A stretch of DNA of 64,000 nucleotides, taken from assembly GCA_903813345.2 (NCBI GenBank), contig CAIIXF020000002.1, positions 31,056,926 through 31,120,925 of the forward strand, in the 5' to 3' direction. The notes beneath the pieces are model-generated. The model saw only the letters and a list, made by a program, of their open reading frames with translations, made no database searches and was not told the DNA's origin. This DNA comes from Owenia fusiformis (Eukaryota; Annelida; Polychaeta; Sabellida; Oweniidae). Below, piece by piece: positions 19,408 to 63,323 of this stretch. The position numbers and the translations under genes were made by a program. Each line of letters opens with the position of its first letter. Within the stretch, counting starts at the first letter, position 1.

Positions 19408-19466
19408 TAAATATCCATGAATTCATGAGAGATCTTCATTTGTAAGTCAGAAAGCGACCATACAAG

Positions 19467-20564: not shown

Positions 20565-20792
20565 ATATTGTGTATTGTATTGCACTAATTTGTTTGCTTT
20601 TATATGAATCATAATGTAAATAAATATATATCCTATTTGTGTGTTTATTTATAAAAAAAATGTTTTGTTTGTTTCATGATTAATATAAATCAGATCATCA
20701 AAGAAAAGAAAAAAAAGAAAATATGAAATAGCAGTGAACATCCATATTAGATTGAGGGTTGTAGAAAGTTAATATATTACTCATGTTTAAAT

Positions 20793-22859: not shown

Positions 22860-22884
22860 CCCCCCCCCCCCCCCCCCCCCCCCC
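22860..22884. repeat. poly-C microsatellite
   Basis: An unbroken run of about 25 C. Confidence 0.95.
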
Positions 22885-37508: not shown

Positions 37509-37539
37509 AACAACATACCTGCCAACCTAAGACAAAAAT

Positions 37540-39377: not shown

Positions 39378-39770
39378 TTATCCTATGCCTAGTAGAGTTT
39401 TAGAGAGATAAGTTGGTAAGATATATCCCGTATCCTGATTTTGAGGTTTCCATATCCAGAACCTCCATATCTCCCGCTTCGGTGCATATCTTCCCGCTTC
39501 CGGTGCATATCTTCCCGCTTCCGGTAATGCATTAAAATGACTTGATTTGTTTATTTTTACACCTTGTACTATTGAAATGGCCATATGCCCCTGAAAACTC
39601 TACTTGGTATAGGATAAAGCAGTTATGTACGGTCGGTTTGGATATGGGGTTCATCCCTCGGGAGATATGCACATCTACCTTCGGTCCCTACGGTCCCTCA
39701 GGTAGATATGCATATCTCCCTCTGGATAAACCCCATATCCAAAACCTCCCAGTACATAACCCTTATATAT
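39378..39770. repeat. palindromic MITE-like repeat, copy A
   Basis: Starts TTATCCTATGCC and ends CATAACCCTTATATAT. It contains two inverted-repeat blocks: TTATCCTATGCC near the start with its inverse before 39620, then a foldback around GGTAGATATGCATATC. A second copy lies at 53253-53668. Two copies of a 21-bp CCGCTTCCGGTGCATATCTT-type unit are present here, three in the other copy. Confidence 0.75.
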
Positions 39771-40146
39771 TCGGGTTGGTGAAGGAATATTACAGGGACA
39801 GTACAGGAAGACTTCAATTTTTCAGCATTTCCCAATAACAATAACGGGAAATTTTACGGTAGTTTGAACAAAAATACTGTTGATTTTAGCAGAAATACGG
39901 TAGATTTTCGAAAATTTACGCTAGATTTTCAAATATTTACGGTAGATTTTACGGCCGTTCTCATGAAATAAACGAGTTTTTTAAAAAGAAAATTTACGGT
40001 AGATTACGAAAAAAATACGGTAGATTTTTTTACGGGCGTTTTTACGGGAAAAAATGGTATTTTTTTACGGTAGTTTGTCATTTTTTTACGAAAAACGAAA
40101 AATTTACGGTAGATTCCCGTAAAAATACGGTAGGTTGGCAGGTATG

Positions 40147-40408
40147 AACAAGATACTTTTTTAAAATCAACCAAAATTTCCTTTGTACAATTACAATATT
40201 GAGAGACCTAAACATGTTGTGTTTATGTCATTTCGGAAAGATGTTTCATTTCACTCTGGAAACATGATACCAAGAACAAAACAAGTGTTTGATGTATTTT
40301 CTAAAACAATATAGATGAAAGTATATATATATTTTTCAAATTATATTGTTACCATTCAAAAGATGACCATTAAATTGACGATGTGATAAGGTGAACGCTC
40401 AACAATAT
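40147..40408. other. distal half of the duplicated segment, no gene
   Basis: Matches 43080-43330 (shared TTGAGAGACCTAAACATG and ACCATTCAAAAGRTGACC). A further diverged fragment lies at 58378-58475. Confidence 0.6.
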
Positions 40409-41415
40409 TTCACTAGATAGACTTTATAGTGAATTCAATGTTGTATATTGTTAAGTTGTGGAATCTTCAACTAGATTTTCTCAATATTTCACTGCGTTCA
40501 GTCGTGGAATCAACTAGAATTACTCAATATTTCACTGTGTTCAGTCATGCATTGTCATGGAATCAACTACATTTTCTCAATATTTCACTGTGTTCAGTCA
40601 TGAAATCAGCTAGAGTTTCTCAATATCTCAAAGCATTCAGTCATGGAATCGACTAGATTTTCTCAATATTTCACAGCATTCAGTCATGGAATCGACTAGA
40701 TTTTCTCAATATTTCACCACGTTCAGTCATGGAATCTGCTAGATTTTCTCGATATTTTACTGTGTTCAGTCGTGGAATCAACTAGATTTTCTCAATATTT
40801 CACAGCATTCAGTCATGGAATCAACTAGATTTTCTCGATATTTTACTGTGTTCAGTCGTGGAATCAACTAGATTTTCTCAATATTTCACAGCATTCAGTC
40901 ATGGAATCGACTAGATTTTCTCGATATTTCACAGCATTCAGTCATGGAATCAACCAGATTTTCTCGATATTTTACTGTGTTCAGTCGTGGAATCAACTAG
41001 ATTTTCTCAATATTTCACAGCATTCAGTCATGGAATCAACCAGATTTTCTCGATATTTTACTGTGTTCAGTCGTGGAATCAACTAGATTTTCTCAATATT
41101 TCACAGCATTCAGTCATGGAATCGACTAGATTTTCTCGATATTTCACTGTGTTCAGTCATGGAATCGACTAGATTTTCTCAATATTTCACAGCATTCAGT
41201 CATGGAATCAACCAGATTTTCTCGATATTTTACTGTGTTCAGTCGTGGAATCAACTAGATTTTCTCAATATTTCACAGCATTCAGTCATGGAATCGACTA
41301 GATTTTCTCGATATTTTACTGTGTTCAGTCGTGGAATCAACCAGATTTTCTCAATTTTCTGTGTTCGTTGTGTTCAGTCATGGAATCAACTAGATTTTCT
41401 TAATATTTCACTAGA
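40409..41415. repeat. 43-bp minisatellite derived from the end of the THEM6 coding sequence
   Basis: About 23 units of TGGAATCAACTAGATTTTCT plus CAATATTTCACAGCATTCAGTCA. The right-most unit is the last coding exon of the THEM6-like gene itself (minus strand), containing its final codons and the TGA at 41386-41388. The left end carries a copy of a further 30 nt or so of that exon (CACTAGATAGAC and on). Confidence 0.9.
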
Positions 41416-44400
41416 TAGATTATTATAGTGAATCCAGTGTTTTACATGCTCAGGTGTTGGTAGAGGTGACACTGGTCTACCATAGTGATCATCTAGTGCA
41501 TTCTGGGGGGAAATACCTCCTGACCATGTCTGCTTTAATGTAACAACAGCACATACAAAACTGTCCCTATTCCTCACAAATTTTTGTTCGACGTAGAATG
41601 CCTTGTCATCCCAACATAGGAGCTGAAATTAAAGATTGACTTAAGTTCAGATCACTACAAGAGCAACTGTGCCCTGTCATGTGCATTCGATTTTAACTTT
41701 TAAGAGTACGTAGGGGCATATTCAGACACGGGATATTCATTCTCAAACAATCTTTAACAGTTTAATAATTCATGGTTTTGCATGATTTCTTTATTGAAAC
41801 TTCAAAAAATTAGACACATCGTGATTCTGTGATATACATTGTAAAGAGTCTTACATGACAATGCCCCAGATTTTCACCTGATCCCAAGGGTTTTTCCGGG
41901 AATGCCCCATGGCCGAAAATGCCCTAGCTAAGAAGTCTATGATCAGACAATATTTTGAAGCAAGTTCACCATTTGTCTTTTCATGTTGTAACAAGAGACC
42001 TGAATGTCACAGTGAGAGTGAGATACATTTGCCCATAGGCACACACTTTGCGCTAATATTCAAATTTCTTAAATGTTATTAACATGAACCATACTAGTAC
42101 TGGAACTGATTTATGGTATATGTCAGTATGTAATATGCATGTCACTCAGGAGAGTTTATTTCTGGAGAAGGGACCTTGCGACTCAGAAAATAAATTTGCA
42201 CCACTCCTTGAAGCTATTATACATTGGTGGAAGTTTTGTTTTGTCCAAAATCGCAAAATGCTGCCTTATGTTACATGTAAGAAACCCCTGAAAAGCTTAA
42301 AACATACCTTTGTAATGATATTATAAGTATCAAATAAATCGATGGATTTCCGATATCTTATTGTACTTGCTCCAGCCAGCATTCTGCCCTTAAGCTTTCT
42401 CACAGCCTGGTATATTCCTGTGGTGATCCAGAAGTCAAATCTAGCAAAGTCACACTCCCGTAAATACCTAAAAAACATTGAACTTTACAATGAGTTTCAA
42501 TTTTGCGATAAATAATTGTGGGCATGTCCAAAAACAATTGAAGTAAAATAGGTTTCTTTTAATTCTACTGAATTCTGATATACCAATGAACTACAGCCTT
42601 GTGCTTGGATGAATATTAGGAAACACCCTGAGTGTACATACCAGGTTGTTCAATAAATTGGCGGAAAAATTACACTGATTCAAAGATTTTCAATACTTTT
42701 TCATGAAATTGATTCGTAAAATATCAACATATCTAATTTGATTGTTCAAAAATAATGGTTAACTTTGAAATGAGAAGATTTTTCTGTGAACTTATTGAAA
42801 GACCTGGTATCCTAGTTTATATAATGCTACTATGGCATTCTGTAAAAATACACAGTCCTTTATGTAATGTTGACTGACTGACAATAATTTAATGCGAAAA
42901 TTATTTATATATACTTTATATAATTGTGTTTGTTAACATTTTTGTCTTTTAGTGCAATTGTTTTTTGTTACTTTCAGGGTGTAGTTATACATAAAAGGAA
43001 ATTTTGGTTGATTTAACAAAAAATATTCAAAAAAAATAAATAAATAGATTATGATTAAGATAAACCTTTTATTTCATTAACAAGATACTTTTCTAAAATC
43101 AACCAAACTTTCCTTTGAACAATTACAATATTGAGAGACCTAAACATGTTGTTCCAATGAGGTTCGGATACAGAGGTTTCATTTCATTCTGAACATATGA
43201 TACCAAGAACAAAAGAAGTGTCTGAAGTGTTTTCTAAAACAATATAGAGAAAAAATTTTTCCAAAGTATAATGTTTCCATTCAAAAGGTGACCATTTAAG
43301 TTGATGATGTGTAAGATTTTCATAATTTTTTGACGACTGGTTTAAGAGAAATGTGTGTTTAAAAAGTTCACCATATCGATACCCATCCTTTGGATATTCA
43401 ATAATTACCTGGCATTATTCATGTGCAGCACCAGATCTAGGTCAGTTGTCAGACATATACCTGCAAATATTATGGAGAGTACAGTAATACTAGGTCAGTT
43501 GTCAGACATATACCTGAAAATATTATGGAGAGTACAGTAATACTAGGTCAGTTGTCAGACATATACCTGAAAATATTATGGAGAGTACAGTAATACTAGG
43601 TCAGTTGTCAGACATATACCTGAAAATATTATGGAGAGTACAGTAATACTAGGTCAGTTGTCAGACATATACCTGAAAATATTATGGAGAGTACAGTAAT
43701 ACTAGGTCAGTTGTCAGACATATACCTGCAAATATTATGGAGAGTACAGTAATACTAGGTCAGTTGTCAGACATATACCTGCAAATATTATGGAGAGTAC
43801 AGTAATACTAGGTCAGTTGTCAGACATATACCTGCAAATAGAGTACAGTAATACTAGGTCAGTTGTCAGACATATACCTGCAAATATTATGGAGAGTACA
43901 GTAATACTAGGTCAGTTGTCAGACATATACCTGCAAATATGATGGAGAGTACAGTAATACTAGGTCAGTTGTCAGACATATACCTGCAAATATTATGGAG
44001 AGTAGAGTAATACTATACATGTATGTGTAAAATACAGTTATACCATAATCACTGTGATATTAGTTGATTCTTTTTTTCAAAAAAAATATTTCTCCCGATT
44101 TTTGGAAAAAATATCTTAATTTTTATTTTTTACTTGATAGGTACAATTAAGCTTGGCCTGAGAGACTGACAGAGTCTGGTTTGAACATGGGTGGAGAGGA
44201 AATGGTGCTGTGTCAGATTGCTAATAAAAAGTAAGTTACAATAACTACAGCGAGAGACCAGGGAAGGAACAAATAACGTAACCATCCGACGACAAGATAT
44301 TGTACCATCTAAGATGCAGTTGGCAGTTTATATTCAATGGACGGTGCCTCAGCTGGCTTTAGACAGAAAGACAGGTACATGTATGTTTGCAGTAAGTATA

Positions 44401-47400
44401 AGAGTAGATATCTATTTACTGCAAAACATGACTCCCAAATAAATGTCAATTGATTGATTTGTGTTAGATGTGTCTCTTTCTTTTATTTGATGTAATGTCA
44501 AAAGCAAGAAAAAAGCGCAAATCAACCCCGTAGTTGTGGGGATACTGTGAATGTAAGGACCAAAATGGATTTGATGTTCACCATGACTGTACATTTTCCC
44601 ATGACTGTACAGCCCTGTACAATAAGTAGACGCAGTGGCGTAGCCAGGATTTGGTGACCAGGGGTTCTATTTTTATGTTATCCACAAATCTCCACATTCA
44701 TCGGTGTACCTCACATAAAAGCATTTTTGTATTTGTCATACATACAATTTTCACCACTCCAAAAGTTTGGCAACCGTAACACCCCCATTGAGTGTTTTTG
44801 GTGAATCTTTTACTGAAAAGATATTGAAATCTGGGGGCAAAATCATACATTTTAATACAACATTTGTTTAATGAAATCCAAATCAAGAGTTAGCATACAT
44901 TGAGCTAACTTTTGTTAAGGGCAAATCCTAACATATCTTTAAGGAACATATTTTTAACGAGCTATTTTATTTTGAAATCCTCATTCCTAATTCATTCTTT
45001 AGGGTTCAAGGCATTCAAAGATACAGGGTGTCCGGAAAGTAAAGATACAAATGCTCTCATTTCAAGAGATTTACCTGTTATGAGATGAAATTGCACCTGA
45101 ATGTAGAATGACATTCTAACAATATATCCTGCAACTGTCAGGACTTTCAGTTTCAAAATGAAAAAGTTATGGTTGTTATGGTAATGAGAGTCGAGGGTAA
45201 GTGGAGCAACGTCACAACTGTGTTGTACAAATCTCTTTCCTGCTCATACATGCGGTCCTAACTTGGACCGTTATTTTAAATTTTTGACCTACCGGATGTT
45301 TGAAAATCAAGGATTACGAGTCTCATACTGCACCGTTTTTCTTCAAACTTGTTCCATTCAAGGTATAACAAAAATCCCTTTCTGATGGTACATTATTCTC
45401 TTAAACGGATTCCCTACTTTCAGCGGCATTTTGGTCCCCAGCTGTAAGAAGGCCTTCTAACAGCTGGGGACCAAAACGCTGTTAGAACGAGGGACTCTTT
45501 ACAATAAAGTAATGCACCGACATAAAGGCAATTTTGTTCTGCTTTTAATGGTATAAGTTTGAAGAAAAACGATGCAGTATGAGAGTCGCAATCCTTGATT
45601 TTCAAACATCCGGTAGGTCAAAAATTCAAATTAACGGTCAAAGTTAGGACCGCGTGTCATATGATCTTGGCACTCCACGATCTATTCCTATATTATATCA
45701 AATTATGTACCACAACAGCAGAGAGATTAGTACTGCAACATTATTTGATCATTTCATATTACTACTATCATTAAATATTCAGTATTTTCCCCATTATCTT
45801 AACATTCTTGGTGCATCTTGGCCGGCGATTCAAAGACCTGACAAAACCGCTGTTTTCCATCTCTCAGATTGCTGATAAAATTGGCTTCCAGCTGAGTCCC
45901 ATTTTGTATGTTGAACTTCTTTGAAATATTGCTTTCAAATGGTCATTAAGGTAGAAGTCAAAAGATGCTCTATCAGGTGAATATAGGACATTGAAAGGCT
46001 TTATGTCAAGACACTCCATTGTAAGATTTGTTTTTTGCTTTGTGAATTGGTGTATTGTGGAGATGCAATATTGACTTTCCTACTAATGGCCAGGGACCAT
46101 TCTTCTAGGCACTTGTATAATATTTCTTTGATTATACTGGTTAGTGATATAACTACTAGTTCTGATATGTAGCAATGACATCATTATATAAAAGAAAACG
46201 CTATGGCAGTGACAATACAATGATGAACAAAACAAACCATAGATAGGAAATACAACAAAAAACACTGTTTGAAATGGTTGTCTTTAAGCAATTTTTCACA
46301 TTTTAGCGTTGTTCAGGAACTGCTCCGCATAACAAGTCCAAAGATAGATTCCTGCATGTATAACTGGTCATGGCGTAATCATAAAATATGAAATCAAATG
46401 TCCGCCATTTTTCCACATCACAATTTGAATTGCAAGTTTTGGTCTTATTACCTCACCAAAAATTCCAAAACACACATGAAGTGATCAATGTATTAGTTCA
46501 CATCTTCTGGATCGCTAGAATTTACAGCCAGTTAGTAATATCAGACATTAATGACATTTCGTCCAGTTTGGAATATCGCCATTTTTCTTGGAGCCATTCG
46601 TTTTAATTTTAGACGAAATCCTGATGAAATCATATCTCATCATGGGGCGGTCCCATTTTAATTAATGATTTATTTATCAGGCTATTTCTAAAATATTCAA
46701 TGAATTTATGACACGCCGGCCAGCTTTTTTTCAAATGGAGTTCACGGTATTCCAGATGAAATTACCTCTAGCCAAGAATTAGCTAGAGACTCAAGTAACC
46801 CCAGATGATTCAGATTGATTTTTCAAATCACCCCCAAAACTACTTCGGTTCACAGGCACCAGTATCGCCACCTTTTAGCAGTCGGATTAGAACGATCTAA
46901 GCCCTGTATTTTAAAGGGCTTAGGTCGTTCTAATCCGACTGCTAAAAGGTGGCGATACTGGTGCCTGTGCTTCGGAGCGTAGCGACTACTTTGCGGGAGA
47001 CCTCGAACCATTGATCACGTTTGCTCCTGTAATTATTCACTTCTTCACCTCTTTAAAATGTAATTTCAATCAGTTGATCAAATTTTCGGACTTTGACCTC
47101 AAGTTCAAATATTGATATTTATAACAAAAAATACTGACTCATTATTTTATTTTTAAAAGTCTTTCAAATAAAGTGAAATGAAGCCAAAATCAGCTAAAAT
47201 TATGCAATGTCGTAAAATGGCGTTACTGGAATATGATGCAATCACCTGTGACGTCAGACACGTATTGCCACATCAACAACTAAACAAACAATTAATATAG
47301 ACTTAACTGATTGGTTTAAATATTCTTCGCATCATTTGTGACGTCATAAGCATGTACCCCCATAGATGTGGGGTTATTTTGAGGTTTTTTGATATTTAGG

Positions 47401-47831
47401 ACATTTGTTGAGAAACAAATGTCCTAAATATAAAAAAAACTCAAAATAACCCCACATTTATGGGGGTATAAGCATGTTACCCAACCAACAACTAAACAAA
47501 TAACAAATAGGCATAGGTTCGTTCAGTGCCAAGCTCCTGAATCAGTTATAAACAGGATAATTAAAAGATATATGATAGGGTCAGGATTTTTTGACTTGGA
47601 GACCTCGACTCGAGGAGTTTGCTGCATTTTCTTGTTTAGCCAACCTCTTTCAAATCTTTTGACACACTGATCTGATACAGTACCTGGGGTAAAGACTTCT
47701 CCATTCAGTGCATCAACTGGTCTGATGGTTCGTTTGACAAGAGCTAATATGTACATAAGTATTCCTCGCCAGAAATAGTGGAAATCAAAGAAACAGAAGA
47801 GAAAAGTTGAAATCAGCAAGATCCAAAACAT
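41386..47831 (-). CDS. THEM6: THEM6-like protein (thioesterase superfamily member 6)
   Basis: Four exons on the minus strand: 47831-47684, 43460-43409, 42467-42308 and 41622-41386. All are GT-AG with matching phases and give 198 aa (human protein about 208). The start MFWILLISTFLFCFF is a signal or membrane segment. The small second exon gives TTDLDLVLHMNNAR, and the third continues with YLRECDFARFDFW. Together these form the conserved 4-hydroxybenzoyl-CoA thioesterase-like hot-dog core of THEM6. The last exon gives RDSFVCAVV and the C-terminal VKHWIHYNNLSSEILRK. THEM6 is a membrane protein of the ER/secretory system with poorly known substrate. Minisatellites sit on the acceptor of exon 2 and on the stop codon. 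It is divergent from AIMP1. Confidence 0.92.
42830..43330. repeat. duplicated segment with empty site, in THEM6 intron 2
   Basis: Matches 37150-37508 joined to 40147-40400. It holds ATTTCATTAACAAGATACTT, with no insertion between. Confidence 0.8.
43439..44011. repeat. 53-bp minisatellite carrying the 3' splice site of THEM6 exon 2
   Basis: About 11 units of AGGTCAGTTGTCAGACATAT plus ACCTGMAAATATTATGGAGAGTACAGTAATACT. On the minus strand each unit holds a TTTGCAG or TTTTCAG acceptor followed by the first 24 nt of exon 2. The true exon is the unit at the left edge. One unit near 43839 is about 10 nt shorter. Confidence 0.93.
44633..44680. repeat. dispersed repeat fragment, GGCGTAGCCAGGATTTG type
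   Basis: Short match to the start of the repeat at 22037. Confidence 0.5.
45025..45075. mobile_element. mariner-like terminal sequence
   Basis: ACAGGGTGTCCGGAAAGTAA resembles mariner-family TIRs. No opposite end was found. A compact foldback with the same end lies at 58154-58210. Confidence 0.5.
45250..45655. mobile_element. 406-bp foldback element
   Basis: Long imperfect palindrome. GCGGTCCTAAC at 45252 pairs with GTTAGGACCGC at 45643, and GACCTACCGGATGTTTGAAA pairs with its inverse near 45600. The centre is TTTGGTCCCCAGCTGT paired across about 14 nt. No coding capacity. No clear target duplication. Confidence 0.8.
46851..46969. mobile_element. 119-bp hairpin MITE, ends CACAGGCACC
   Basis: Arms of about 55 bp with one mismatch around a 9-nt loop. 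The flanks CTTCGGTT and CTTCGGAG agree at 6 of 8 bases, a possible decayed 8-bp target duplication. Confidence 0.85.
47356..47467. mobile_element. 112-bp hairpin MITE, 10-bp target duplication
   Basis: Near-perfect palindrome starting ACCCCCATAGATGTGGGG and ending TTATGGGGGT. It is flanked by perfect ATAAGCATGT on both sides (47346-47355 and 47468-47477). Confidence 0.88.
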
Positions 47832-47890
47832 TTTAAGTCACGTGACTTCACCATGTGAAACTTCCGGATCCGTCTGTTCGTCTTCGGTAA
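47832..47890. promoter_or_regulatory. divergent promoter of THEM6-like and AIMP1
   Basis: Directly upstream of the THEM6 ATG are the palindromic E-box GTCACGTGAC (47837-47846) and an ETS-type ACTTCCGG (47860-47867). A possible donor TTCG|GTAAAA near 47887 would end an AIMP1 5'-UTR exon, which would splice to the acceptor at about 49063. The shared use is inferred. Confidence 0.45.
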
Positions 47891-48215
47891 AAAGATTTTT
47901 TATTTTTATTGAATGAATATTTCAACGTTTTCCTTCCCCTCAGTTAACTTTTAAAGGTAATCAATCATCTATTGGAGTTTCTAAACGCGTGCTCCAGATC
48001 TTGAGTTGTTTCCAAACAGCGCATTATGAAATTTTAAGACGTGATTGAGCTTCATTCACTTGGCTTCAATCGCTGACTGACTCAGTTTGAGTTTCAGTCA
48101 CTGTGTTCATCTTTCAGTGCATAGACTTAGGTTTATCTTAGGTTTATGGAACAGGAAGTTGTATCAAATCTGTTATTGTCTTGTCTTGTCCTCACAATAA
48201 AAATGTTTCCAAGTA

Positions 48216-48393
48216 CAGTAAAACTTGTGTATAGTGAACATTTTTTTGCCAAGAAAAAACGTTCACTGTAGGTAGGTGTTCACTAGAGATAGGGTGATTT
48301 ATACAGAAGTCAGTGGACTATGTGCGTAGGAAGGGTGTCCACTAGGGACAGGTGTTCACTAGAGAGAGGTGTTCACCTAGACAGGTTTTACTG
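48216..48393. mobile_element. pogo/Tigger-like MITE
   Basis: Ends CAGTAAAACTTGT and ACAGGTTTTACTG are inverted repeats flanked by TA on both sides. Inside, GTTCACTAGAGA-type units repeat. Confidence 0.75.
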
Positions 48394-48422
48394 TATTTAC
48401 TTATAAAATTTGTATAAATTGT

Positions 48423-48565
48423 CACAGGAAGTTGTATCAAGTCCTTTTTGGGCCTTGCCCTTCCCCAATCTCAGAACAGATGTATTCCTCATACATCTGT
48501 TCTGAGAGTGGGGAAGGGCAAAAAGCGCTGTTAGGCACAAAAGGACTTGATTACAACTTCCTGTG
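48423..48565. mobile_element. 143-bp hairpin MITE, 8-bp target duplication (hAT-like)
   Basis: Starts CACAGGAAGTTGTA and ends TACAACTTCCTGTG, with arms folding through TCTCAGAACAGATGTA. It is flanked by perfect TAAATTGT at 48415-48422 and 48566-48573. Shares CACAGG tips with 46851-46969. Confidence 0.88.
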
Positions 48566-49111
48566 TAAATTGTACCATGGGCTTTCAATTAGAAATTCTA
48601 GTTGAATGCCCATGATTGTACAAATTTTAAAATATCAACAGAATCGCTACAAGTCTATTAGTTTTTGAATTATAGCAAAATATGTAAAATGACACATAAA
48701 ATTACGGCAATTTTTTAAGATAGTTTACAATTATCCCATGCCAGGACTATAGTCCTGAGAACGTCTCTATCTTTTGCCTGTACGATTACAACATTGGAGA
48801 ATTTTCTGCGCCTCTTACACTTAAGATACCTACTTAAATAGATTCCTTGGTATTTTAGCATTCTTTTTGTGTAGAAGTTGAATCCACAATAACAGTGTGG
48901 GAGGTCTGGATTGATTTATTTCCTGGGTTGTGATGGCCATCAGTAGGGAGGTCGCTGAACTGTTAAATTGTCTTAAATCTTCTAAGTTGCTTTAGAACCA
49001 ACCTCTGCATTCAGTGTAGTGTAAATAGTCAATATTAATTCTCTCTTATCTCAACTATTTTAGGTGAATATAAAATATTAAGCAGTTGTATAGGTCAGAT
49101 TCATGTTGAAG

Positions 49112-52100
49112 ATGGCCAGTTCTGCAGTACTAGAGCGCCTCGCTGCAAGGTCTTCCCAAGCAGATCAGATTATTAAAGATTTGACAGATAAGATTATGGA
49201 TTTGCGACAGTCTGCAGGTAAATGATACTTACATTCCTCCAGTTATTCTGCCTCATTCTGCCATGGTTTCCATGGTCAAAGTAAATAGTTTTTCAAAATT
49301 GTAAGACTAAATGTGGTAAAATGTAGTACAGTCTGTAAGTGAAAATAACTTTTGAATTTTTGGGATGGGATGCAGTTTTGTATCAAATAGATGATGTCAA
49401 AATTGGAAAAAACTCTCGAATGTATATTCCAGTTGCTGAAGCGTGTAAGAAGGAAGAGGAAAGCTTACGTCGAGAAAATGCAGCCCTCAGAAGTGAAGTA
49501 GATGCCTTAAGGAAGCAACTATGCCAAGCTGAATCTAGAAATGGAAGTGAGTGAAAAACATTTAAAAATGCATTTAAGGCCATGAAGGCTGATGGTGAGT
49601 ATCTGGAGAATCGAATAGTGTAACAATGGAATACAAGGCTTTTCAGTTTTTAATTTAAATTGTTCATAAATGAAACAGGATTCGATGTAAAGTTGATGGG
49701 ATGATATCACTCAATCTTCAAGAAACTGATGAATTAAAATGTCTTTTGTAGGGAGACAAATCACACTTCCATCCCAGCCTGCAAAGGTTAATGTACCAAC
49801 TGTAGTCCTGGCAACAGCAGACAATGCAACTGGAGAACCATCTAATGAAAAAACATCTGTTGAGAAACCTAAACAAGAGAAGAAAAAGAAAGAAAAGAAA
49901 GGTACTTTGAAATTGAAAGTCTGGGTCAATCATCAGCCAGTACATACCTTCATCTTTGTTTTTATCACACTTTTCAAAAGTGCTACATTGGCATTGTCCA
50001 GTGCTGATGGGCCGGGGGTCTGATCTGAGTGTCTGAGCGAGCAGCCATAAATTTTGTCATCAAGATTCCAGGAAAATTGCTTAGTGTACTGAGTCAACTT
50101 AAAATTTTTACAGATACAAGAGCAAACTAGTGCCAAGATCTGATTAGGTTTTGGGCATGCTGGGTAAATTACATGTTGGCCATTTTGAATTTTTTTGAAA
50201 AAAGTGTGATAATCATCACTGTGTGTTCTGTTGAAGTTATGTTATACATTTTTACATTTTAAAATCTTCTGATTAGATTAGATTGTAACAAGGTGCCAAC
50301 ATAGACTAACAACCTTTGGATTAATTTTGTTTTTATTTGACCTTGTAGAAGCAAAACCTAAAGCACCAGCTGAGGGGGCCCTGCCTGTGGATATCTCCAG
50401 GATGAACATAAAGGTCAGTGGTTACATTATATACCGGCAAAAGATGACTTCATGAGACATGGTATTAGAGCAATGATTATCCCAACTAACAAAGTTAAGT
50501 AGGGTTAGGGAAAGGCAGTCCATCTGTCCATCCATTTGTTCATCTGTCCAGTAATAACTGGGTACATACATGTTAATCCGGTATTGGATACATTCATGTA
50601 TGTTGGTTGGATTCAATGAATTCTACCCAGTTATTTTGTTGCACTTTGCTATATACAAAGCGTGAAAAAAAAATTAATAAACCATATTATAACATACCTA
50701 TGATGATGTATAGTGCAAAGTGTACACAAGACAGCGGGCCAATATAAGTTTTGAAAAGCCCGCGCCCGCTAATTTTCTGATTGGTCAAGGCGCTGACGTC
50801 ATAACCAATCAATCGAAGATAAAACTGCGCGAGCAATTTTTCTAAACTCATTTCAATCATTTTCAAACCATTTGTTTGTCAATTCTATAAGAAAACGGTA
50901 CTCTCTGACCAGTCTACATCAGCTTAGGTATGTTATAAATCGTTTATGTCACTATCGTGGCACATATGCCCTCAGTGCTCAGAGATCAATGTCCCTCCCA
51001 AGGTCGGGCCATATATCACTGAGACCTCGGGCATATATGCCACGATAGTGACATAACCTCTAATGATAGCACTGTTCAAATATGAACCACAGGATGAGTC
51101 TCTTGTCCAACTATGTACCACATGATAGCATTGTTGCTCAAAAACTGACCAAAACTGATCCCTCACTCAATTTCCAGGTTGGTCAGATAGTGAATGTAAA
51201 AAAACATCCAGACGCTGACAGTCTTTACATTGAGGAGGTCAACCTTGGAGAAGAGAGGAACAGGACCATCATCAGTGGACTTGTTAACCACATCCCTATA
51301 GAAAAGGTAAGCAAAATGTATTATTTACCACATCCCTATAGAAAAGGTAAGCAAAATGTATTATTTACCACATCCCTATAGAAAAGGTAAGCAAAATGTA
51401 TTATTTACCACATCCCTATAGAAAAGGTAAGCAAAATGTATTATTTACCACATCCCTATAGAAAAGGTAAGCAAAATGTATTATTTACCACATCCCTATA
51501 GAAAAGGTAAGCAAAATGTATTATTTACCACATCCCTATAGAAAAGGTAAGCAAAATGTATTATTTACCACATCCCTATAGAAAAGGTAAGCAAAATGTA
51601 TTATTTACCACATCCCTATAGAAAAGGTAAGCAAAATGTATTATTTACCACATCCCTATAGAAAAGGTAAGCAAATGTATTATTTACCACATCCCTATAG
51701 AAAAGGTAAGCAAAATGTATTATTTACCACATCCCTATAGAAAAGGTAAGCAAAATGTATTATTTACCACATCCCTATAGAAAAGGTAAGCAAAATGTAT
51801 TATTTACCACATCCCTATAGAAAAGCTAAGCAAAATGTATTATTTACCACATCCCTATAGAAAAGGTAAGCAAAATGTATTATTTACCACATCCCTATAG
51901 AAAAGGTATGCAAAATGTATTATTTACCACATCCCTATAGAAAAGGTAAGCAAAATGTATTATTTACCACATCCCTATAGAAAAGGTAAGCAAAATGTAT
52001 TATTTACCACATCCCTATAGAAAAGGTAAGCAAAATGTATTATTTACCACATCCCTATAGAAAAGGTAAGCAAAATGTATTATTTACCACATCCCTATAG

Positions 52101-55100
52101 AAAAGGTAAGCAAAATGTATTATTTACCACATCCCTATAGAAAAGGTAAGCAAAATGTATTATTTACCACATCCCTATAGAAAAGGTAAGCAAAATGTAT
52201 TATTTACCACATCCCTATAGAAAAGGTAAGCAAAATGTATTATTTACCACATCCCTATAGAAAAGCTAAGCAAAATGTATTATTTACCACATCCCTATAG
52301 AAAAGGTAAGCAAAATGTATTATTTACCACATCCCTATAGAAAAGGTATGCAAAATGTATTATTTACCACATCCCTATAGAAAAGGTAAGCAAAATGTAT
52401 TATTTACCACATCCCTATAGAAAAGGTAAGCAAAATGTATTATTTACCACATCCCTATAGAAAAGGTAAGCAAAATGTATTATTTACCACATCCCTATAG
52501 AAAAGGTAAGCAAAATGTATTATTTACCACATCCCTATAGAAAAGGTAAGCAAAATGTATTATTTACCACATCCCTATAGAAAAGGTAAGCAAAATGTAT
52601 TGTTTACCACATCCCTATAGAAAAGGTTAGCAAAATGTATTATTTACCACATCCCTATAGAAAAGGTAAGCAAAATGTATTGTTTACCACATCCCTATAG
52701 AAAAGGTAAGCAAAATGTATTATTTACCACATCCCTATAGAAAAGGTAAGCAAAATGTATTATTTACCACATCCCTATAGAAAAGGTAAGCAAAATGTAT
52801 TATTTACCAAATCCCTATAGAAAAGGTAAGCAGAATGTATTATTTACCACATCCCTATAGAAAAGGTAAGCAAAATGTATTATTTACCACATCCCTATAG
52901 AAAAGGTAAGCAAAATGTATTATTTACCACATCCCTATAGAAAAGGTAAGCAAAATGTATTATTTACCACATCCCTTTAGAAAAGCTAAGCAAAATGTAT
53001 TATTTACCACATCCCTTTAGAAAAGCTAAGCAAAATGTATTATTTACCACATCCCTTTAGAAAAGCTAAGCAAAATGTATTATTTACCACATCCCTTTAG
53101 AAAAGCTAAGCAAAATGTATTATTTACCACATCCCTATAGAAAAGGTAAGCAAAATGTATTATTTACAACATAAATTGACAAAGTGAGTAAGAGAGCAAA
53201 AAACAGAATGAACATCCTCTGATGTAATTTTTTATCAAATAAATAACAGACTTTATCCTATGCCAAGTAGAGTTTTAGTGAGATAAGTTGGTAAGATATA
53301 TCCTGTATCCTGATTTTGAGGTTTCCATATCCAGAACCTCCATATCTCCCGCTTCGGTGCATATCTTCCCGCTTCCGGTGCATATCTTCCCGCTTCCGGT
53401 GCATATCTTCCTGCTTCCGGTAATGCAATAAAATGACTTTGCATATGAATGATTTGTATATTTTTACACCTTGTACTATTGAAATGGTCATATGCCCCTG
53501 AAAACTCAACTTGGTATAGGATAAAGCAGTTATGTACGGTCCGTTTGGATATAGGGTTCATCCCTCGTGAGATATGCACATCTACCTTCGGTCCCTCAGG
53601 TAGATATGCATATATCCCTCTGGAAAAACCCCATATCCGAAACCTCCCAGTACATAACCCTTATATATGTACTCGGCATATGGTGTATGGTGAGCTAAAA
53701 ATTCTTACCATTATTATCAAATTGGGTAACATTCTTTGGCTCACCCTGTGTCTACTTTCTCTTCTCTCTTTAGATGCAAGATAGAATAGCTCTGTTTATG
53801 TGCAATCTGAAGCCAGCAAAGATGCGAGGTATTCTCTCAGAGGGAATGATAATGTGTGCCAGCACCCCAGAAAAGGTGGAGATCATTGATCCTCCTGCAG
53901 GAAGCAAACCTGGAGACAGGGTCATATTTGAGGGCTATTCAGGTATAGTACATCTTTTTGGCTCACCCTGTACATCTACATAACTTCTATGTGAGATCAG
54001 AAACTGATAGGTTTTATCAGACATATAGTAACAATAGCTTTGTCTCATAGTATTATGACTTACCATTTGTTACAGGCATCAAATGCCTAACACCAACAGT
54101 TCAACACTGTCCACAAACATGACAAAAGAATTGGAGACTATAACAATATATCACCACTTCTGGTGTACATCATAGGATATGTCCCCTGTTTGCCTTTAAA
54201 GTGCCCGATAAAGTATAAAATGCGCATGCGTCCAGGTGTTGATAAACTATAAATAGCGAAAATCCAGGGTTTGTCACCACAAGGTAAGCCAGGACGTGTT
54301 GAGAGAACAGCTTGTGTTGATATTGAATTTATATGTAGCCAGATAAGTTTCCTTATTGAAATTACATATGGTTATTAGCAATACTTTGTAGGTGCTAAAT
54401 AATAAAATATTTAGAGTATATATGAGAGAAATTGGTCATTTCGAACCTGTTGAAAAGTTTGTGGCTCTCGGCTACACCGGGGAATTTACTTCCATGAGTA
54501 CACACATAAATGTGGGGTTCCCCAAGAGGTACGCAACAAGGTGACCTGGCATCAAATGTGCGACTAAATTCTACTATCGAGAAGATAAAATAACGAATAC
54601 GACAATAAGTTATTGCATGTGACAATTCGGAGCCTTCATCTCACTGAAGTATTTTGAAGTGAAAATAGGATTTTTGTTTTGATACATGGATTCAGATGAA
54701 CGTAACTTTATTCTGACAACTAATCAAAACTAAACATTTTTAATTGTACGTAACAGACAATTTATTGTTTTACAATGTTTTGATTGGCTAAACGAATGAA
54801 ACCAACAAATTATGACATGTAAAATGACAATTTTGAAGTGACAAACACAACCTCCCTATCCACCCTTTGGGAGCCCTAGTAAATTAGTAATATGTACATG
54901 CAGCAGTGGTAGTGTGCAGCTTATTATCACACTACGCTTTGTATTCTAAAGCCTGTTGTTTGTAATAACACTGTTCACTCAACGTATGTTTTGTGTGTGG
55001 GCAGTCAACGATAATCATTGTTTTATCCCGGTTATATGACCTCGGCAATTATAACAAAACCGTACTAAACGAAAAAACGCAAATAAGAGAAAGCTTTCAC

Positions 55101-55413
55101 ACACATATAAAAAATGAACTAGTCTAATCCGCCAGTATAAACTCTGTGCTATACGTAGCCGGGTCAGGCGCACACTTTAAATCTAAATAATCTGAAATAG
55201 GTCACTCATTAGTTGTCACTAGGATCATCAATTTTATTTTCAGGCACCCCTGATGAGATGTTGAAACCAAAACAGAAAGTCTGGGAACAAATACAGCCAG
55301 AGCTTCATATCAATGGAGAGAGTGCTGCCACCTATAAGGGGACCCCATTCCAAGTGGAGGGCATTAAGGGATTCTGTAAAGCCCAGACAATGACAAACTG
55401 TGGTATTAAATAA
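49112..55413 (+). CDS. AIMP1: AIMP1, multisynthetase complex scaffold / EMAP-II precursor
   Basis: Seven coding exons: 49112-49217, 49433-49546, 49752-49901, 50349-50413, 51178-51306, 53774-53942 and 55244-55413. All junctions are GT-AG and in phase, giving 300 aa (human 312). The ATG at 49112 is preferred over the in-frame one at 49103 because it has A at -3 and G at +4, and [10 protein letters not shown] aligns with the human start. The N-terminal helical/leucine-zipper part ([18 protein letters not shown]) would bind the synthetase complex. A Lys-rich linker ([12 protein letters not shown]) follows. The last half is the EMAP-II type tRNA-binding OB fold ([34 protein letters not shown], ending [10 protein letters not shown]). 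The donor of exon 5 is multiplied into a 1.9-kb minisatellite. Confidence 0.96.
50687..50938. mobile_element. MITE in AIMP1 intron 4, TIR TTATAACATACCTA
   Basis: TTATAACATACCTA at 50687 and its exact inverse at 50925-50938 bound about 250 bp. No clear target duplication. Confidence 0.6.
50944..51056. repeat. inverted repeat, TTATGTCACTATCGTGGCA
   Basis: The two ends are inverse copies of about 30 bp (TTATGTCACTATCGTGGCA and on), with a partly paired middle. It lies directly next to the previous MITE. Confidence 0.75.
51287..53169 (+). repeat. 40-bp minisatellite carrying the 5' splice site of AIMP1 exon 5
   Basis: About 47 units of ACCACATCCCTATAGAAAAG plus GTAAGCAAAATGTATTATTT. The first half is the last 20 nt of exon 5 and the second is the start of its intron. 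Nearly every unit keeps AAAAG|GTAAGC. At least six have GCTAAG instead. The GCTAAG and GTATGC variants at 51821/51901 recur at 52261/52341, showing an 11-unit (440-bp) block duplication. Four GCTAAG units with CCCTTTAG cluster at 52970-53110. Confidence 0.96.
53253..53668. repeat. palindromic MITE-like repeat, copy B (AIMP1 intron 5)
   Basis: Second copy of 39378-39770. It starts TTATCCTATGCC and ends CATAACCCTTATATAT. Inner inverse at about 53500-53525. The foldback around GGTAGATATGCATAT fills the right third. Confidence 0.75.
53943..55243 (+). other. AIMP1 intron 6
   Basis: No exon seen. A 30-bp stretch (TTGGAGACTATAACAATAT, near 54131) recurs near 58022, so a dispersed repeat fragment is present. 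Confidence 0.6.
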
Positions 55414-55531
55414 GAAAGGACTGACTAGAGATAAAAAATTCCCATCTTAAGGCTGCTGTTCGGACATCAATTTACTGTCAGATGTGTTGCATGAAATATT
55501 TTCAAGCTTTACATTGTCAGAAAAATTTCAA

Positions 55532-55537
55532 AATAAA
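55532..55537 (+). terminator. AIMP1: likely poly(A) signal of AIMP1
   Basis: AATAAA about 120 bp after the stop codon. Confidence 0.5.
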
Positions 55538-57303
55538 ACAAAATATGTCATGATAATTGTTTCTTTTGTGACTTAAAAAACTTGTTCAAGGTAATATTTT
55601 GAAATAAGACCTCTACTCGAGCTGGAATTTGTAATACGGCATGACGCTACACCATCAGATCAAAGGTATGGATTTTCTCAAAATGAGACAATAGTATTAT
55701 TTCCATCATGTTATGTTAAGAATGATGACTGATTTGTTCAATTATGTTTTGTCGGTGGGAATTGCTACTCTGGGGGGGGGGTTCTAGTTCAGTTTTTTAT
55801 CACTAAAATTCATCTCGTAATGAACTTATCCAGTTTTGTCAGTGAGTTAATCAAATGAGTTCAAAATACGTTTGTGTCTTCATTGGGCACCCAAAAATAG
55901 TTTATCTTTAGAATAATGTTGGAACTTTCAATAGGGTCCCTTCCACACAGTGTTCAAGGTCATTATTCTAAATATGATTTACTCTGCATATACTTGTATA
56001 TGAGAAAGCACAATTGGTCGGCAGTAGTTTTAATTATATTGAAAAAAATTATAAAAAGAAACCCAGTCTCTCGTATTATCATAATAAACAAAAATCTTTC
56101 ATTTTAGTATGTATATTTACCATCTTTAATAATAATATACATATTTATTTAGGAAATGTTTTACATGACAAAAATTTTAAGACATAAGTTTTGTGGCCAG
56201 AATTTAAGCACATACAATCTTTACACAAGAGTGCTTAGTTTCTCAACATAAATAAAATGCACATTAATTTACAGTCTATAATACATTGCTACAAAAATAG
56301 ATTTAATTAATTACTTTCGTTGACCTTTGACCTTATATGGCACAAGTATCAAACAATATACAATATTAAATATTTAATTCCATCCCCTGTTTAACATATT
56401 CAGTTAAATCGTTAAGCCAGACACCTCTATTAGCTTAACAACTCTATTAGTTCTACACTCGTTTGCCTGTTGATCCTGAACCGTCACCATCTTGACTGCT
56501 ATATAGCTTTATAAGGTTTTGTTAAGTTTTTGATGAGATTTTAGGAGATTTGTATATCCATAAGGACTTTCTTCCACTGGATGACACATCTTAATTTTCT
56601 GCACAATTAAGGCCAAGATTTTTAAATTTTCTGAAAATATCAGGCTAAATCCCTATGAACAGACTGTTTAGTTAAGTTGATTGACTCTTAAAGATCACAT
56701 TGTCAGATTGTTAAGGTTAAATCCTTATCAGTGTGTCAACAAGATCAACCAGTTGAATACCAATGAAGTTTTACAAATAGTGTTATTCTCATGCTAAATA
56801 ACAACGTAAAATATTTTAATTTTTAATGATATAGGTACTAGTACTACTTACAGAATCAACTGACTTTGTCATAAGCATTCTTTTCTGTATTGACAGTTAA
56901 AAAGATTGAAGATGTAGAAATGGAACATTCCACTTAAAAATTGAAAAAGGTGTGAGCAGTTTTTTCAATTTGGATCCTTTACTGCTTCCAAAGAAGATTC
57001 AGAATTTTTTATTTTTTGTCTATTGATCATGTACATGTAAGTCTACGGATCGTGTAAGTGACATACCGTTATTAATTAAAACACACTTAAGGTTTATTTG
57101 GGATAAGAATTACATCTTGAGCCTTTTAATAAATGGAAAATAAGTCAAAAGACTGTCAGTTTTCTCTGTTATATGTTATATGTAGTGGTATTCCAGCCTG
57201 ACCAAAACCACTAATGCCATCTATTTTTCATAAAGCAAGTCTTCTCTTGGCTGACATATTTTATTGTGTCATTGTCTTAACTTGCCATTGGCTGGCCTCT
57301 ACC

Positions 57304-57540
57304 ATCATGTGTCACTACCACAAGAACATATTGTATTATCATGTGTCACTACCACAAGAAAGCATTGTACTGTCATGTGTCACTACCACAAGAAAGCATT
57401 GTACTATCATGTGTCACTACCACAAGAACGTATTGTACTGTCATGTGTCACTACCACAAGAAAGCATTGTACTATCATGTGTCACTACCACAAGAAAGCA
57501 TTGTACTATCATGTGTCACTACCACAAGAAAGCACTGTAA
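57304..57540. repeat. 34-bp minisatellite
   Basis: About seven units of ATCATGTGTCACTACCACAA plus GAAAGCATTGTACT. It is not at an exon edge that I can see. The overlapping open frames are repeat products. Confidence 0.92.
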
Positions 57541-58153
57541 GCTGAATACCAAAGAAAAACCTTTCAATCCTAATGTGTTCAACCTAATTTTAGGTTTTAG
57601 CATTACTGTACAGTGTACATATATTATTGCTAGATTACCTTGAACATTAAAAAAAAATCTATGTTGAGAAGCACTATCATGTACAGTTTTAATTGATCAT
57701 TGTGATGAAAGAAAGTCTAAATTTTAGTTAATAACTAAATGAAACATAAAGTGCCATTAAATGGTACTTTCTTGAGCCAATATGTTAACTATAAGACTGA
57801 AAGAACAATTTAGTATTATAAGATTGACTACCAAATAAAGTCAATTAATACAGTTCAACCAGAGTACGGAATTTTCAGTGCTCACTTAAACCCATCTAGA
57901 CAACAATGAAACTTGATGACATCACATACAACAAGGCATTAACATGCAAAATGTCACCACCCTCCATTCACTACAGATGCTGAACTCCGAGCACAAACTT
58001 CCAGATGCCTTTACAAAAAAGTTGGAGACTATAACAATATGTCACCACTTGGGTTGGTGGTGAAAATGAAAAGGGCGTCATCATTAAATGATGTCAGTCA
58101 ATACACTATCCAAATATAGATTTTGGAACACTTTTTCTTATTTCTTAATAGTC

Positions 58154-58210
58154 TACTGGGTGTCCAGAAAGTAAAGACCATTTGTATCTTTACTTCTTGG
58201 ACAACCTGTA
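58154..58210. mobile_element. 57-bp mariner-like foldback
   Basis: TACTGGGTGTCCAGAAAGTA and, inverted, TACTTCTTGGACAACCTGTA pair around about 7 nt. TA lies at both ends. Related to 45025. Confidence 0.6.
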
Positions 58211-58909
58211 CATGGCCATATTATGCCACATTAAATGTGTGCAATATTGGAACATGGAAAATGTGATCCTCTTATTTTGAAAGCACTCCTATGATGTACA
58301 AACCTGAATAGTGAATTTCCTTGTGTAGAGTATCCAATGCATTAAACAGTAGTATGTATATATATCATCTTTGACTTTGTTATATTGTTACCATTCAAAA
58401 GATGACCATCGCAAAGATAATGTGTGATTTTCAATATTTATCGATAACTGGTTTAGCTTAAAAATGTTGAATTTAGTTATAAACCCACAACCAGTTCTTT
58501 CAATTTTTCCCTTTTCCTTGCCTATTTGGTAATTATTGACAAAAACAAATTCCATATTTGAACGATTCGTAGAGATGCAAAGTTGGGTTTCTCAAAATCT
58601 GAAGGCAATTAATAATTGCTATTAAAGTACACCACTGTTTTATGTAAAGGCAAGGTATCAGCACAATACGATTCAAGGATTCATCATATTTGAAAAAGTA
58701 ATTCCAAAATTAGAGTACTGCATTTTTCTGTCAGCCATGCTACATAAATGACCATGAAATAAAAATGACAGTGTAAGTATTACACATAAGGTATAACCAT
58801 CTGTGGAGCTCATCGTATATTGCACATATGACCATACAATGGAGCACGTCATGCTTGTATTAAGTGTAAACTATTATAATTTTCTGCAAAATCAATATCA
58901 TACAATTTA

Positions 58910-61900
58910 CTACAATTTCTTTAAGGCAGAGTTCAATCCAAAATGCTCTTCAACATCAAAGTCCAAAACAAGTAGTTTGGTTTCCTCCGTGCCATTTCTC
59001 GATCCAACTGCACATACAAGTTTTGTATTACTACACCTCACACGCCAAACTACCCCTCCGCTTCCCCCACTGTCCAAACTAACGAGATTTCGTACAAATT
59101 CACCGTTTTTCAAATCCCAAATTTTGACAGTTCCATCATCTGAAGAAGTGATGACAAATTTTCTGTTGAACTGTAGGCATGTCACAGCACTCTGGTGCTT
59201 GTTGGTGCCTGCAAAAAAACAAATCAAATTTTCTCAAAATTATTTTCAAACTTTTTGAGAAATTCAGTATATGAGCCCCGCCATAGGAAAACCGGTCTTA
59301 TCACAAAAATTGAAACTGTGCTAGAGAGCCAAAAATGTGCCCAAGATTAAGAGGAAAATGTGCTAAATTCAAATCCATGTTTTGGTCTATATCTGCGAGG
59401 AAAAATTTATTAGACATAAGCCATGGGACATTTGAAAGGCCTCTTTGTGCTTTTTAAGAAAAACAATAAAATCAAAATATTGAAAAAATCTGTGATAAGA
59501 CCAGCTTTCCTGTGGCCTGGCTCATATAGTAAAGTACATTTATAACTAATTTTTTTAATTTCAACCCTAATAACTGTAGAAGCAAAAGTGTCACTGCCAG
59601 TGCCTGGTATATCTATTACATGTATATACAGTAAAGGAAATGCCACTGTAGGTGGAACACTCTGAAAATGCAACACTTTTCCCCATGACCAACTGACTAA
59701 GGCCTTATTGTATTGTATTTTGTTATACCACCAATTAAGGTGAGCAATACCTTTTGGGTATATCCTGTATAGATACAGTCGTAATTTACGTAATTAACAA
59801 TGAAGATAGACCCAGAAACCCCTCCTTGAAGGAGCCCTTATGTTAAAAAATGAGCCTCTCTAAGTGGAACACCTAAGTGGAACACTTGATAGAGTTACAA
59901 CGAAGATGTTCCACTTACACAGGTTTTACTGCACATTCCCACTCAAACCCATATTCCATTTCAAGACATAACTACCACCATAATATGATTATTGTCATTT
60001 ATTGATTTATGACATGTATCTTCATGAGAACAAGCCTCACCTTGTAATGTCTGTAAGCATTGGCCAGTCAATATATCCCACACTTTAACAGTCGAGTCAG
60101 CATTCCCAGATACAAGAATATTGTCTTTAAGTTCCATTCCGCTAGTTAAGGACTGATGCCCTATGAGAGTGTGAAGACAGTTGCCAGTCTCAACATCCCA
60201 AACTCTAATTGATGTGTCCAGTGAGCCACTGACAATGTGAGCTCCATCAAACTACAAAACATGTCATAAAGATCATAAGTCCTCATTTAGTATGCAATGT
60301 GAGCTCCATCAAACTACAAAACATGTCATGAAGATCATAAGTCCTCATTTAGTATGCAATGTGAGCTCCATCAAACTACAAAACATGTCATAAAGATCAT
60401 AAGTCCTCATTTAGTATGCAATGTGAGCTCCATCAAACTACAAAAACATGTCATAAAGATCATAAGTCCTCAGTTAGCAGTGCATGAAATAAGGATTTTT
60501 TTAACCTAGACATTTTGGCAGGCCAGCCAGATTTTAACCAGCCATATCATTTTTTCTCAGGCCAATTTCTGGCAGGCTGTTTCTTACTTTCCCCCTAGAT
60601 TCACCTTACAAAAACATGAGGAACATGTACATGTTGATCAAACTAAACTGTACTGATTTTGGTCGGTTAAGAAATGCTCAGAACTCAGGAGCTTCAAGGT
60701 ATTCAAAAAAAAAAATTTTGGCCAGCAGGCTTCTCTGTCCTTGGGGCTGAGCTGGACATTTAGGCATGATTATCTGAGAGGAAATGTGAACCTAAATCTA
60801 TCTAGATTTTTATTTCTTTAAAAATCTGAAAACCAGGTGCGAACAAAACTAAGTTGGAGGCATAACGATCCCAGTATTTATTTTACATGTCAGATTATTT
60901 TGAGTCATCCCGCAGACAAAAATACATGTTCACATCACAAAACGCAAAATATGACAACACATACTTTGACATACTTTGATATGTATTCATTTAGGCAGTC
61001 ATTTTGAAATGACTGAGTCATGACTCTAAAAAGTTACATTTCTCCTATTAATATCTACAATATGCAACACAGGAGAAATACTTTGGAGGGAATCACGTTT
61101 AATGCCATAAAGGCAAGGCATTAAGCATGAAGAAATTGTATAATGAAATAAATTGTTAATGAATAAAAAAAAGAAATGTGAATTCTAATATTCTGGCAGC
61201 CAATGTATGTCAGATTTTTCGATGCAATTTCCATTTTTTCTAAATGTCTATTTTCATCAGAGCCGATAGTAATAACACTGTGTTTTACCTGCAATGAGTA
61301 GACCCTGTTTGTGTGGCCCTGTAAAGTGTGTAAGCAAGTCTCAGTATCTGGATCCCAGATCTTCACCATATAGTCATAGGCGCCACTGACGACTCGTCTC
61401 CCGTCATACTGCACGCAGCGCACTGCCGCCACATGGCCCATGAGGACATGTAAGCACTGACCTGAGTCTATGTTCCACATTCGTAAAGTAGCGTCCCTAG
61501 AACCACTGACAACACTGGAAATGGAAAACCATTGCAATTTATTATTACATAGTACTTGGTGCAAATGATAAGCACCTGAGAAAAGACAATTACTTTTGAT
61601 CTGAGCCAGATCAGATTAGTTTTTCAGCACGTATAGGAGAATATAACAACTGGTCAGTCATTAAAATTTGATTTGCAGTTCTGAATCTAAAGCGCACACC
61701 TGACACATCCTAGCATGGAGTCAGATTATTTATTTGAGGAGTGTGGAACTGGAATAAGCATCTAAAAAATTTAGATCCAAATTTAGACAGACTGATGTTT
61801 GTTAAACCCAAGACTGATACATAAACGAGCCCATGTAATAATCAAAAATTGTAAACTTACATATTTTCAAACAGATGCATACATCTAACTGTTGAAGTGT

Positions 61901-63323
61901 GACCATAAAGGGTATGTGTACATTGACCAGTGTCAGCATTCCAGACTTTGAGAGTTCTGTCAGTTGATCCACTTATTATAACATTTCCTTGCATTTGCGA
62001 TGACCAAACACCCCCTGTATGACCAACTAAGGTACGTAAGCACTGAAATACAATAAATTGAATATACATTAATTGAATATACATGCAATTGAATGTACAT
62101 TTAATAAAACCCAATGTGGTCAACTTTGGCCACAAATGCAAAACAATGAAAACAATGAAACTTGTATACAAAAGCATTGGAAATGATGGGAATGGTTTAC
62201 TTATTGAGTATAAAAGTTCCACATAATCAGATTGCAATCACCGAAAAGGAGCATTATATTTTACAGGAATACCTGTGAAACAGAGACCAGTATTCATAGT
62301 GGCCAAATTCCTTCTTTGTGGATGGATGTGCCTTATCGAAATTTATGGTTGAAATATTCTGACCTTTACTTAATCTATTAAATTAAAACGCATGTGTTCT
62401 GCAACATACAACAAAAATTTGCGATCCTTTTAAATCTTAACTTTGAGTGTACAAATGCTTGAAGAACCAGAAAAAACTATTTTTCAAAAACTCAGTTTTT
62501 CTAAAACAAATTCTTGATAAAAACATATTTCCAAACTTTGCATAGTTTCTTTAATGAGGAGTACTCACTTTTCCAGTTAAGGCGGACCAAACTTTTAGTG
62601 TGTTGTCATCAGATCCACTCACAATACGATTGCCACAGAACTCCAGGCAGGTAATTACATGGTCATCATGTCCTTTCAATACCTACAACAAAAAGAACTT
62701 TATTGTTTAATGTTTTAACAAGAATTCCCACTGACAAGTGCCATTGGGAGAACACAAAGCACACTTATCTCGTACTTCTTTCACTCAAATAATCTTATGT
62801 ATTAAGTATCTTATACACAGTAAGCAAATTTTAAATGTCATTTTACATAAGTTTTTTAAAGCATTTTAAAGCCTAAATCAGAATTTTATACAACATACAA
62901 TGTCAATGTGGTGTTGGATCTAGTAAAGGATTCCTCTCATATTTTCAACAGGGAAAACTGTTGTTTTACTTCAGACTTTTGACATTAATTGGAGACATTT
63001 TACAATCACTTCTGAGTTAACAATTACTCAACCAAACATACCTTTGGATTTTTCACTGAACCCGTACGCCAGTTTTGTTCAATTTGATGCTGTCGCATAT
63101 AAAGCGCCTTATATGGGCATGGAGCTTTTGGAGAGGACACAAGAGGTGACAAGGATTTCCTCCGTACTCTAGGCCCAAAAACTAGCGCCTCATCTATATT
63201 TTCTTGGTTGCACTTTTCCCGCCAAAGTAAATTGTCCTCTGCTAGAATACGCCAATAGCGACAAGTCTGAGCAGCTTGGAGTAAATCTTTCGGATCCAAG
63301 AATGATAAAACATATAACGCCAA
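58910..63323 (-). CDS. FBXW7: FBXW7, F-box/WD40 substrate receptor of SCF ubiquitin ligase (5' part missing)
   Basis: Six exons on the minus strand: 63323-63042, 62682-62569, 62042-61861, 61514-61289, 60251-60041 and 59208-58910. All are GT-AG and in phase, giving 437 aa to the stop. The first exon is most of the F-box ([37 protein letters not shown]) and its linker. It opens with an acceptor, so the N-terminal exons lie right of the window. The remaining exons form the eight-blade WD40 propeller. The three arginines that hold phosphodegrons in human FBXW7 (465, 479, 505) are all kept, in [16 protein letters not shown] and AAVRCVQY. It recruits phosphorylated cyclin E, Myc and Notch-type substrates in other animals. 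The C-terminus is about 10 residues longer than in human. Confidence 0.97.
59627..59932. mobile_element. pogo/Tigger-like remnant in FBXW7 intron
   Basis: ACAGTAAAGGAAATGCCACT at the left and ACACAGGTTTTACTG at the right resemble the ends of 48216-48393. GTGGAACAC units lie inside. Confidence 0.5.
60237..60485 (-). repeat. 62-bp minisatellite carrying a 3' splice site of FBXW7
   Basis: Four units. On the minus strand each holds about 43 nt of intron ending GTTTTGTAG and then the first 19 nt of the fifth WD40 exon in this window (TTTGATGGAGCTCACATTG). The left-most unit is the true exon start at 60251. Confidence 0.93.
60486..61288 (-). other. rest of FBXW7 intron 4, no other gene
   Basis: AT-rich. 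A stretch around 60510-60760 (GGCAGGCCAGCCAG) looks like a dispersed repeat, but I found no second copy here. Confidence 0.4.

Follow-up and report, generated by a model that had tools for sequence, protein, structure and literature searches.

Splice junctions repeated in tandem at three neighbouring genes of Owenia fusiformis

What becomes of a splice junction that is present not once but many times in a row, and how could such an arrangement arise? Both questions are raised by a 64,000 nucleotide stretch of the Owenia fusiformis genome (hereafter the window; its GC content of 35.3% is lower than that of Branchiostoma, though a single window carries little weight). As claimed in the original prediction, TRF detected four tandem arrays within 20 kb of the window, with units of 43, 53, 40 and 62 bp. 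In three genes a splice junction is repeated in tandem at an intron edge, in 4, 11 and 47 copies. The four arrays are not a product of chance, since none of the nine TRF rows from 20 dinucleotide-matched random windows had a unit of at least 30 bp and at least three copies. The units were also said to be unrelated, and this was borne out: when they were compared pairwise, together with a 34-bp unit from the same window, at least 31% of the shuffled sequences were equally similar in each of the 10 pairs. A common origin of the units is thus unsupported for every pair in this shuffle comparison.

The 47 copies lie at a donor site, that of AIMP1 exon 5.

49103..55413, forward strand: AIMP1 gene, seven coding exons encoding 303 aa, all 6 introns GT/AG
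49103-49217, 49433-49546, 49752-49901, 50349-50413, 51178-51306, 53774-53942 and 55244-55413, forward strand: AIMP1 coding exons
51178..51306, forward strand: AIMP1 exon 5, functional donor AAG/gtaagc after 51306
51287..53172, forward strand: 40-bp array spanning the donor of AIMP1 exon 5, TRF 40 bp x 47.2

The AIMP1 model carries the Pfam domain tRNA_bind, and residues 6-303 align to the solved AIMP1 chain 4r3z (which we take to be human; E 5.5e-93), gap-free at the exon 5/6 junction. Unit 1 of the array comprises the final 20 nt of exon 5 and 20 nt of intron, and the remaining 46 units are located inside intron 5. The donor 9-mer AAGGTAAGC occurs in 38 of the 47 units including the functional one, thus in 37 of the 46 extra copies. 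Variant donors read AAGCTAAGC in six units, AAGGTATGC in two and AAGGTTAGC in one; 9/46 extra copies are weakened or broken. Units 1-9 follow the consensus without change. Variants of units 14-16 recur at units 25-27, and this 11-unit shift points to the duplication of an 11-unit block. One double variant is common to units 43-46, so the two patterns together fit a turnover both block by block and unit by unit. Variants appeared to accumulate away from the exon when every unit was counted (P 0.005), but the effect was gone once copied units had been collapsed to seven events (P 0.23), and we therefore do not claim such a polarity. Directly past the array, still within intron 5, lies a repeat with the 21-bp tandem CATATCTTCCCGCTTCCGGTG (53252-53668), which is 88% identical to a second copy at 39377-39770.

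At the neighbouring THEM6-like gene it is an acceptor that is multiplied.

41386..47831, reverse strand: THEM6-like gene, four coding exons encoding 198 aa, all 3 introns GT/AG
47684-47831, 43409-43460, 42308-42467 and 41386-41622 (stop), reverse strand: THEM6-like coding exons
43437..44015, reverse strand: 53-bp array spanning the acceptor of THEM6 exon 2, TRF 53 bp x 11.1

The encoded protein has a Pfam 4HBT_2 thioesterase domain, and the putative name THEM6 is adopted from the original prediction. No solved relative was found for aligning the protein; the exon 2 acceptor was assigned from the reading frame and GT/AG only. Each unit combines 29 nt from the end of intron 1 with 24 nt from the start of exon 2, and on its exon side the array ends with these opening 24 nt of the exon itself (43437-43460). 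All 11 acceptors have AG, the ten extra ones without exception. Since every copy reads CAG/GTATAT, it is conceivable that a misused acceptor copy could serve as a ratchet-like donor and be respliced.

The third junction, again an acceptor, belongs to FBXW7, whose 5' part lies towards or beyond the end of the window.

58910..63323, reverse strand: 3' part of FBXW7, six exons
63042-63323, 62569-62682, 61861-62042, 61289-61514, 60041-60251 and 58910-59208 (stop), reverse strand: FBXW7 exons
60233..60484, reverse strand: 62-bp array at the acceptor of exon 60041-60251, TRF 62 bp x 3.9 at 60233-60477

Residues 1-425 of the 437 modelled here align to the solved FBXW7 chain 2ovp, presumably human (E 1.1e-249), and the junction within the array (SLQ/FDG) is gap-free in this alignment. 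The AIMP1 and FBXW7 junctions are thus supported by protein alignments independently of the repeats. Of the 62 bp in the unit, 43 are intronic and 19 exonic, and on its exon side the array ends with the opening 19 nt of the exon itself (60233-60251); AG is present in all four acceptors, including 3/3 extra ones. A fifth array (57300-57539, 34 bp x 7.1), the unit of which is unrelated to the other four, is located 1371 bp 3' of the FBXW7 stop.

The original prediction had likened these arrays to the 'mirage' minisatellites of amphioxus. This was right, as mirages are defined in print as tandem repeats across exon-intron boundaries, and in the papers covered they are reported from amphioxus. The genes concerned are Adh3, the globins BflGb6 and BflGb9, TnC (as cited in PMC3902484) and PGBD5 (PMC3902484), and two further loci have been cited, the references being papers on retinol dehydrogenase and presenilin. 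Amphioxus mirages are described as showing length instability, of which the recurring variant block in the AIMP1 array may be at most an indirect sign here, and published RT-PCR suggests that they are spliced normally. As in these amphioxus examples, units of the AIMP1 donor, THEM6 acceptor and FBXW7 acceptor arrays span an exon-intron boundary, donors as well as acceptors are affected, and the AG/GT signals are kept in many copies (37/46 extra donors and 13/13 extra acceptors). What differs from the described amphioxus mirages is that three arrays occur within 20 kb and that one has 47 copies, whereas of two BflGb6 haplotypes one is described with 6 units and the other with 3 (150-160 bp), the BflGb9 mirage with 157 bp and the Adh3 mirage with 10-72 bp. 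By anatomy, the three splice arrays are mirage-type minisatellites, and the cluster is an unusually dense set of examples of an already known repeat type, one of them very long. Three new examples are added, but the claim that the class is hereby extended to three unrelated genes was overstated, because several unrelated mirage genes had already been described. Among the literature matches listed (titles and abstract openings, with few subscription papers covered), there was no genome-wide mirage survey.

Two further systems resemble the arrays in part. In the potato RdRp case of intron gain (PMC4974935), extra splice sites likewise arise by tandem duplication; here, existing introns would have been lengthened and no new intron is invoked. 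Human internal tandem repeats in segmental duplications (PMC2812944) likewise place minisatellite units at exon-intron boundaries and can alter gene structure, but there the arrays alter exons or introns of recent paralogs, whereas the conserved coding exons appear intact here.

The fourth array is of a different kind.

40404..41447, reverse strand: 43-bp array over the THEM6 stop and downstream sequence, TRF 43 bp x 21.6 at 40467-41412

It begins over the final THEM6 codons and the stop, extends downstream, and overlaps a coding end instead of an exon-intron boundary. From the stop to its far end it contains neither AATAAA nor ATTAAA, the canonical signals searched for; the first AATAAA past the array is at 39550, and the ATTAAA at 41534 is within the THEM6 coding exon. 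With the next canonical polyA signal beyond it, the array probably sits in the 3' UTR of the last exon; as a coding-end/3' UTR minisatellite it does not qualify as a mirage. The original prediction of an exon boundary in every array, with the edge unit as the functional exon, accordingly stands for the three splice arrays: the gene models place a boundary in each, and unit decomposition returned the exact array consensus at the exon-side end of all three. It fits the stop array only loosely, because the units on the coding side of that array are divergent. The far end of this array (40404-40448) is a relic of the coding end, matching 41402-41447 in 40/46 alignment columns, and for this reason the founding duplication probably reached further into the coding sequence than the unit does now.

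How could such arrays have grown? The explanation that we favour, and hold to be quite probable, is that three mirage-type arrays and one coding-end/3' UTR array grew by tandem duplication and that the outermost splice site is the one used. A short segment spanning a junction would have been duplicated in tandem, after which slippage or unequal exchange would have raised the copy number and kept the copies alike. Such growth would keep the exon whole, since the outermost site would still end the exon and everything else would become intron. With the exon left intact, duplications of a junction may be tolerated like purely intronic ones. The array over the THEM6 stop falls outside the splice part of this scheme.

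Compatible with this explanation is a process that preferentially duplicates DNA across exon ends, as had originally been proposed; we regard it as possible but rather unlikely. For the placement tests, in which a single 64 kb window supplied both the edges and the arrays, 69 TRF rows were collapsed by hand into 37 arrays, a C run at 22855-22884 being excluded. Nine of the 37 at or below position 21100 were left out, six of them lying inside the mobile element copies and three next to these, which left 28 for testing. Since arrays grow in place, the ancestral single unit was placed at random as a seed. Three of the six long arrays (unit of at least 30 bp, at least three copies, 21100-64000) hold a splice edge, against 0.18 expected (P 0.0005). 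The excess was also found for long arrays in gene spans (3/3, P 0.0008), in the gene-rich part at 39000-64000 (3/5, P 0.0017) and with coding ends counted (4/6, P 0.00002), and likewise with cut-offs of at least 25 bp per unit (3/11 arrays, P 0.003) or at least 20 bp and 3.8 copies (3/8 arrays, P 0.0007). It was weaker when all 28 arrays were used (P 0.014; 3/9 inside gene spans, P 0.008). Placing the arrays at full length gave no significant excess, neither for the six (mean 1.5, P 0.17) nor for all 28 (mean 2.4, P 0.44), nor within gene spans (P 0.12 and 0.32, respectively).

Other junctions also speak against a general process. When 1 kb of intron-side flank was scanned at 29 splice edges, 26 had no copy beyond controls, and the best of these 26 was matched by 8.9% of 2000 control positions. 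Only the three known edges stood out, and older, decayed mirages at other junctions were thus rejected for this 1 kb range. Moreover, the P values cannot stand for the genome, because the window was put forward for this very pattern. Of the predicted process, the seed-unit excess within the window persists, whereas the full-length test does not support it, and a duplication bias towards exon ends is unproven. That duplication, or its persistence, is focused on exon edges here, perhaps beyond cephalochordates, is a tentative suggestion. If it were true, splice-junction minisatellites would be common and fast-changing, and the outermost of dozens of identical sites would routinely be chosen; arrays both common and biased towards exon edges would also be a concrete way for introns to lengthen and for new ones to arise.

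Growth by tandem duplication with use of the outermost site, our preferred explanation, makes demands on splicing. The mRNA that would result from each extra site was computed, with the FBXW7 model restricted to its 3' part. All 59 extra sites (46 in AIMP1, 10 in THEM6, 3 in FBXW7) introduced a premature stop located over 50 nt upstream of the last junction. Products of this type are expected to undergo nonsense-mediated decay, and those of the extra sites should therefore be removed. As all other copies yield a premature stop, the conserved protein can be made only if the spliceosome selects the exon-outermost copy; that this copy is the one spliced is deduced from protein conservation and, in the case of THEM6, from the reading frame. 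Protein conservation likewise argues for normal splicing of AIMP1 and FBXW7 despite the arrays. The protein-preserving site is the first transcribed copy in AIMP1, where 38 donors share the same 9-mer and only the first preserves the protein, and the last transcribed copy in the acceptor arrays of THEM6 and FBXW7. Consequently, neither transcription order nor intron proximity alone would suffice for the choice, and site strength cannot discriminate between identical copies. The likeliest selector of the authentic site is exon definition with exonic enhancers: the authentic exon would be recognised as a unit, and the outermost copy selected with it. Together, the three arrays form a natural test of transcription order versus intron proximity versus exon definition.

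The extra sites might instead be functional, either as nonsense-generating decoys that tune expression, for which the premature stops at 59/59 sites would be suited, or as U1-binding arrays that counteract premature polyadenylation. Intact AIMP1 decoys equal the functional donor in U1 pairing energy (-9.5 kcal/mol, calculated with the U1 sequence). However, the weakened or broken AIMP1 donors count against such a role, and nothing in the sequence requires a function; we consider this reading very improbable. Still less probable is an inflation of the arrays by an assembly or sequencing artefact, for while 1.9 kb of near-identical units in AIMP1 and two near-identical 9.4 kb element copies in the same window are error-prone for assemblers, the units of AIMP1, THEM6 and FBXW7 show ordered variant patterns, the units of different arrays are unrelated, and open reading frames run on through the exon-side ends.

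These two 9.4 kb copies (1981-11377 and 11636-21032) are 99.95% identical, have the same orientation and are separated by 258 bp. Each is flanked by inverted termini roughly 240 bp in length (93%), and their ORFs encode an integrase core with chromodomain, C2H2 fingers and an A32-like ATPase match below the Pfam cut-off; the pair looks like a Polinton-type element. No known RNA family reached the gathering threshold in the window, and no tRNA genes were found. A segment at 30539-32094 repeats itself at an offset of about 600 bp (88.5% identity over 975 alignment columns) and contains several short 21-bp tandem arrays. Outside the modelled genes, we also observed a CGGTAG-rich array at 37539-38262 (31 bp x 23, with a higher order of 93 bp) and a smaller CGGTAG-containing 21-bp array at 39896-39950.
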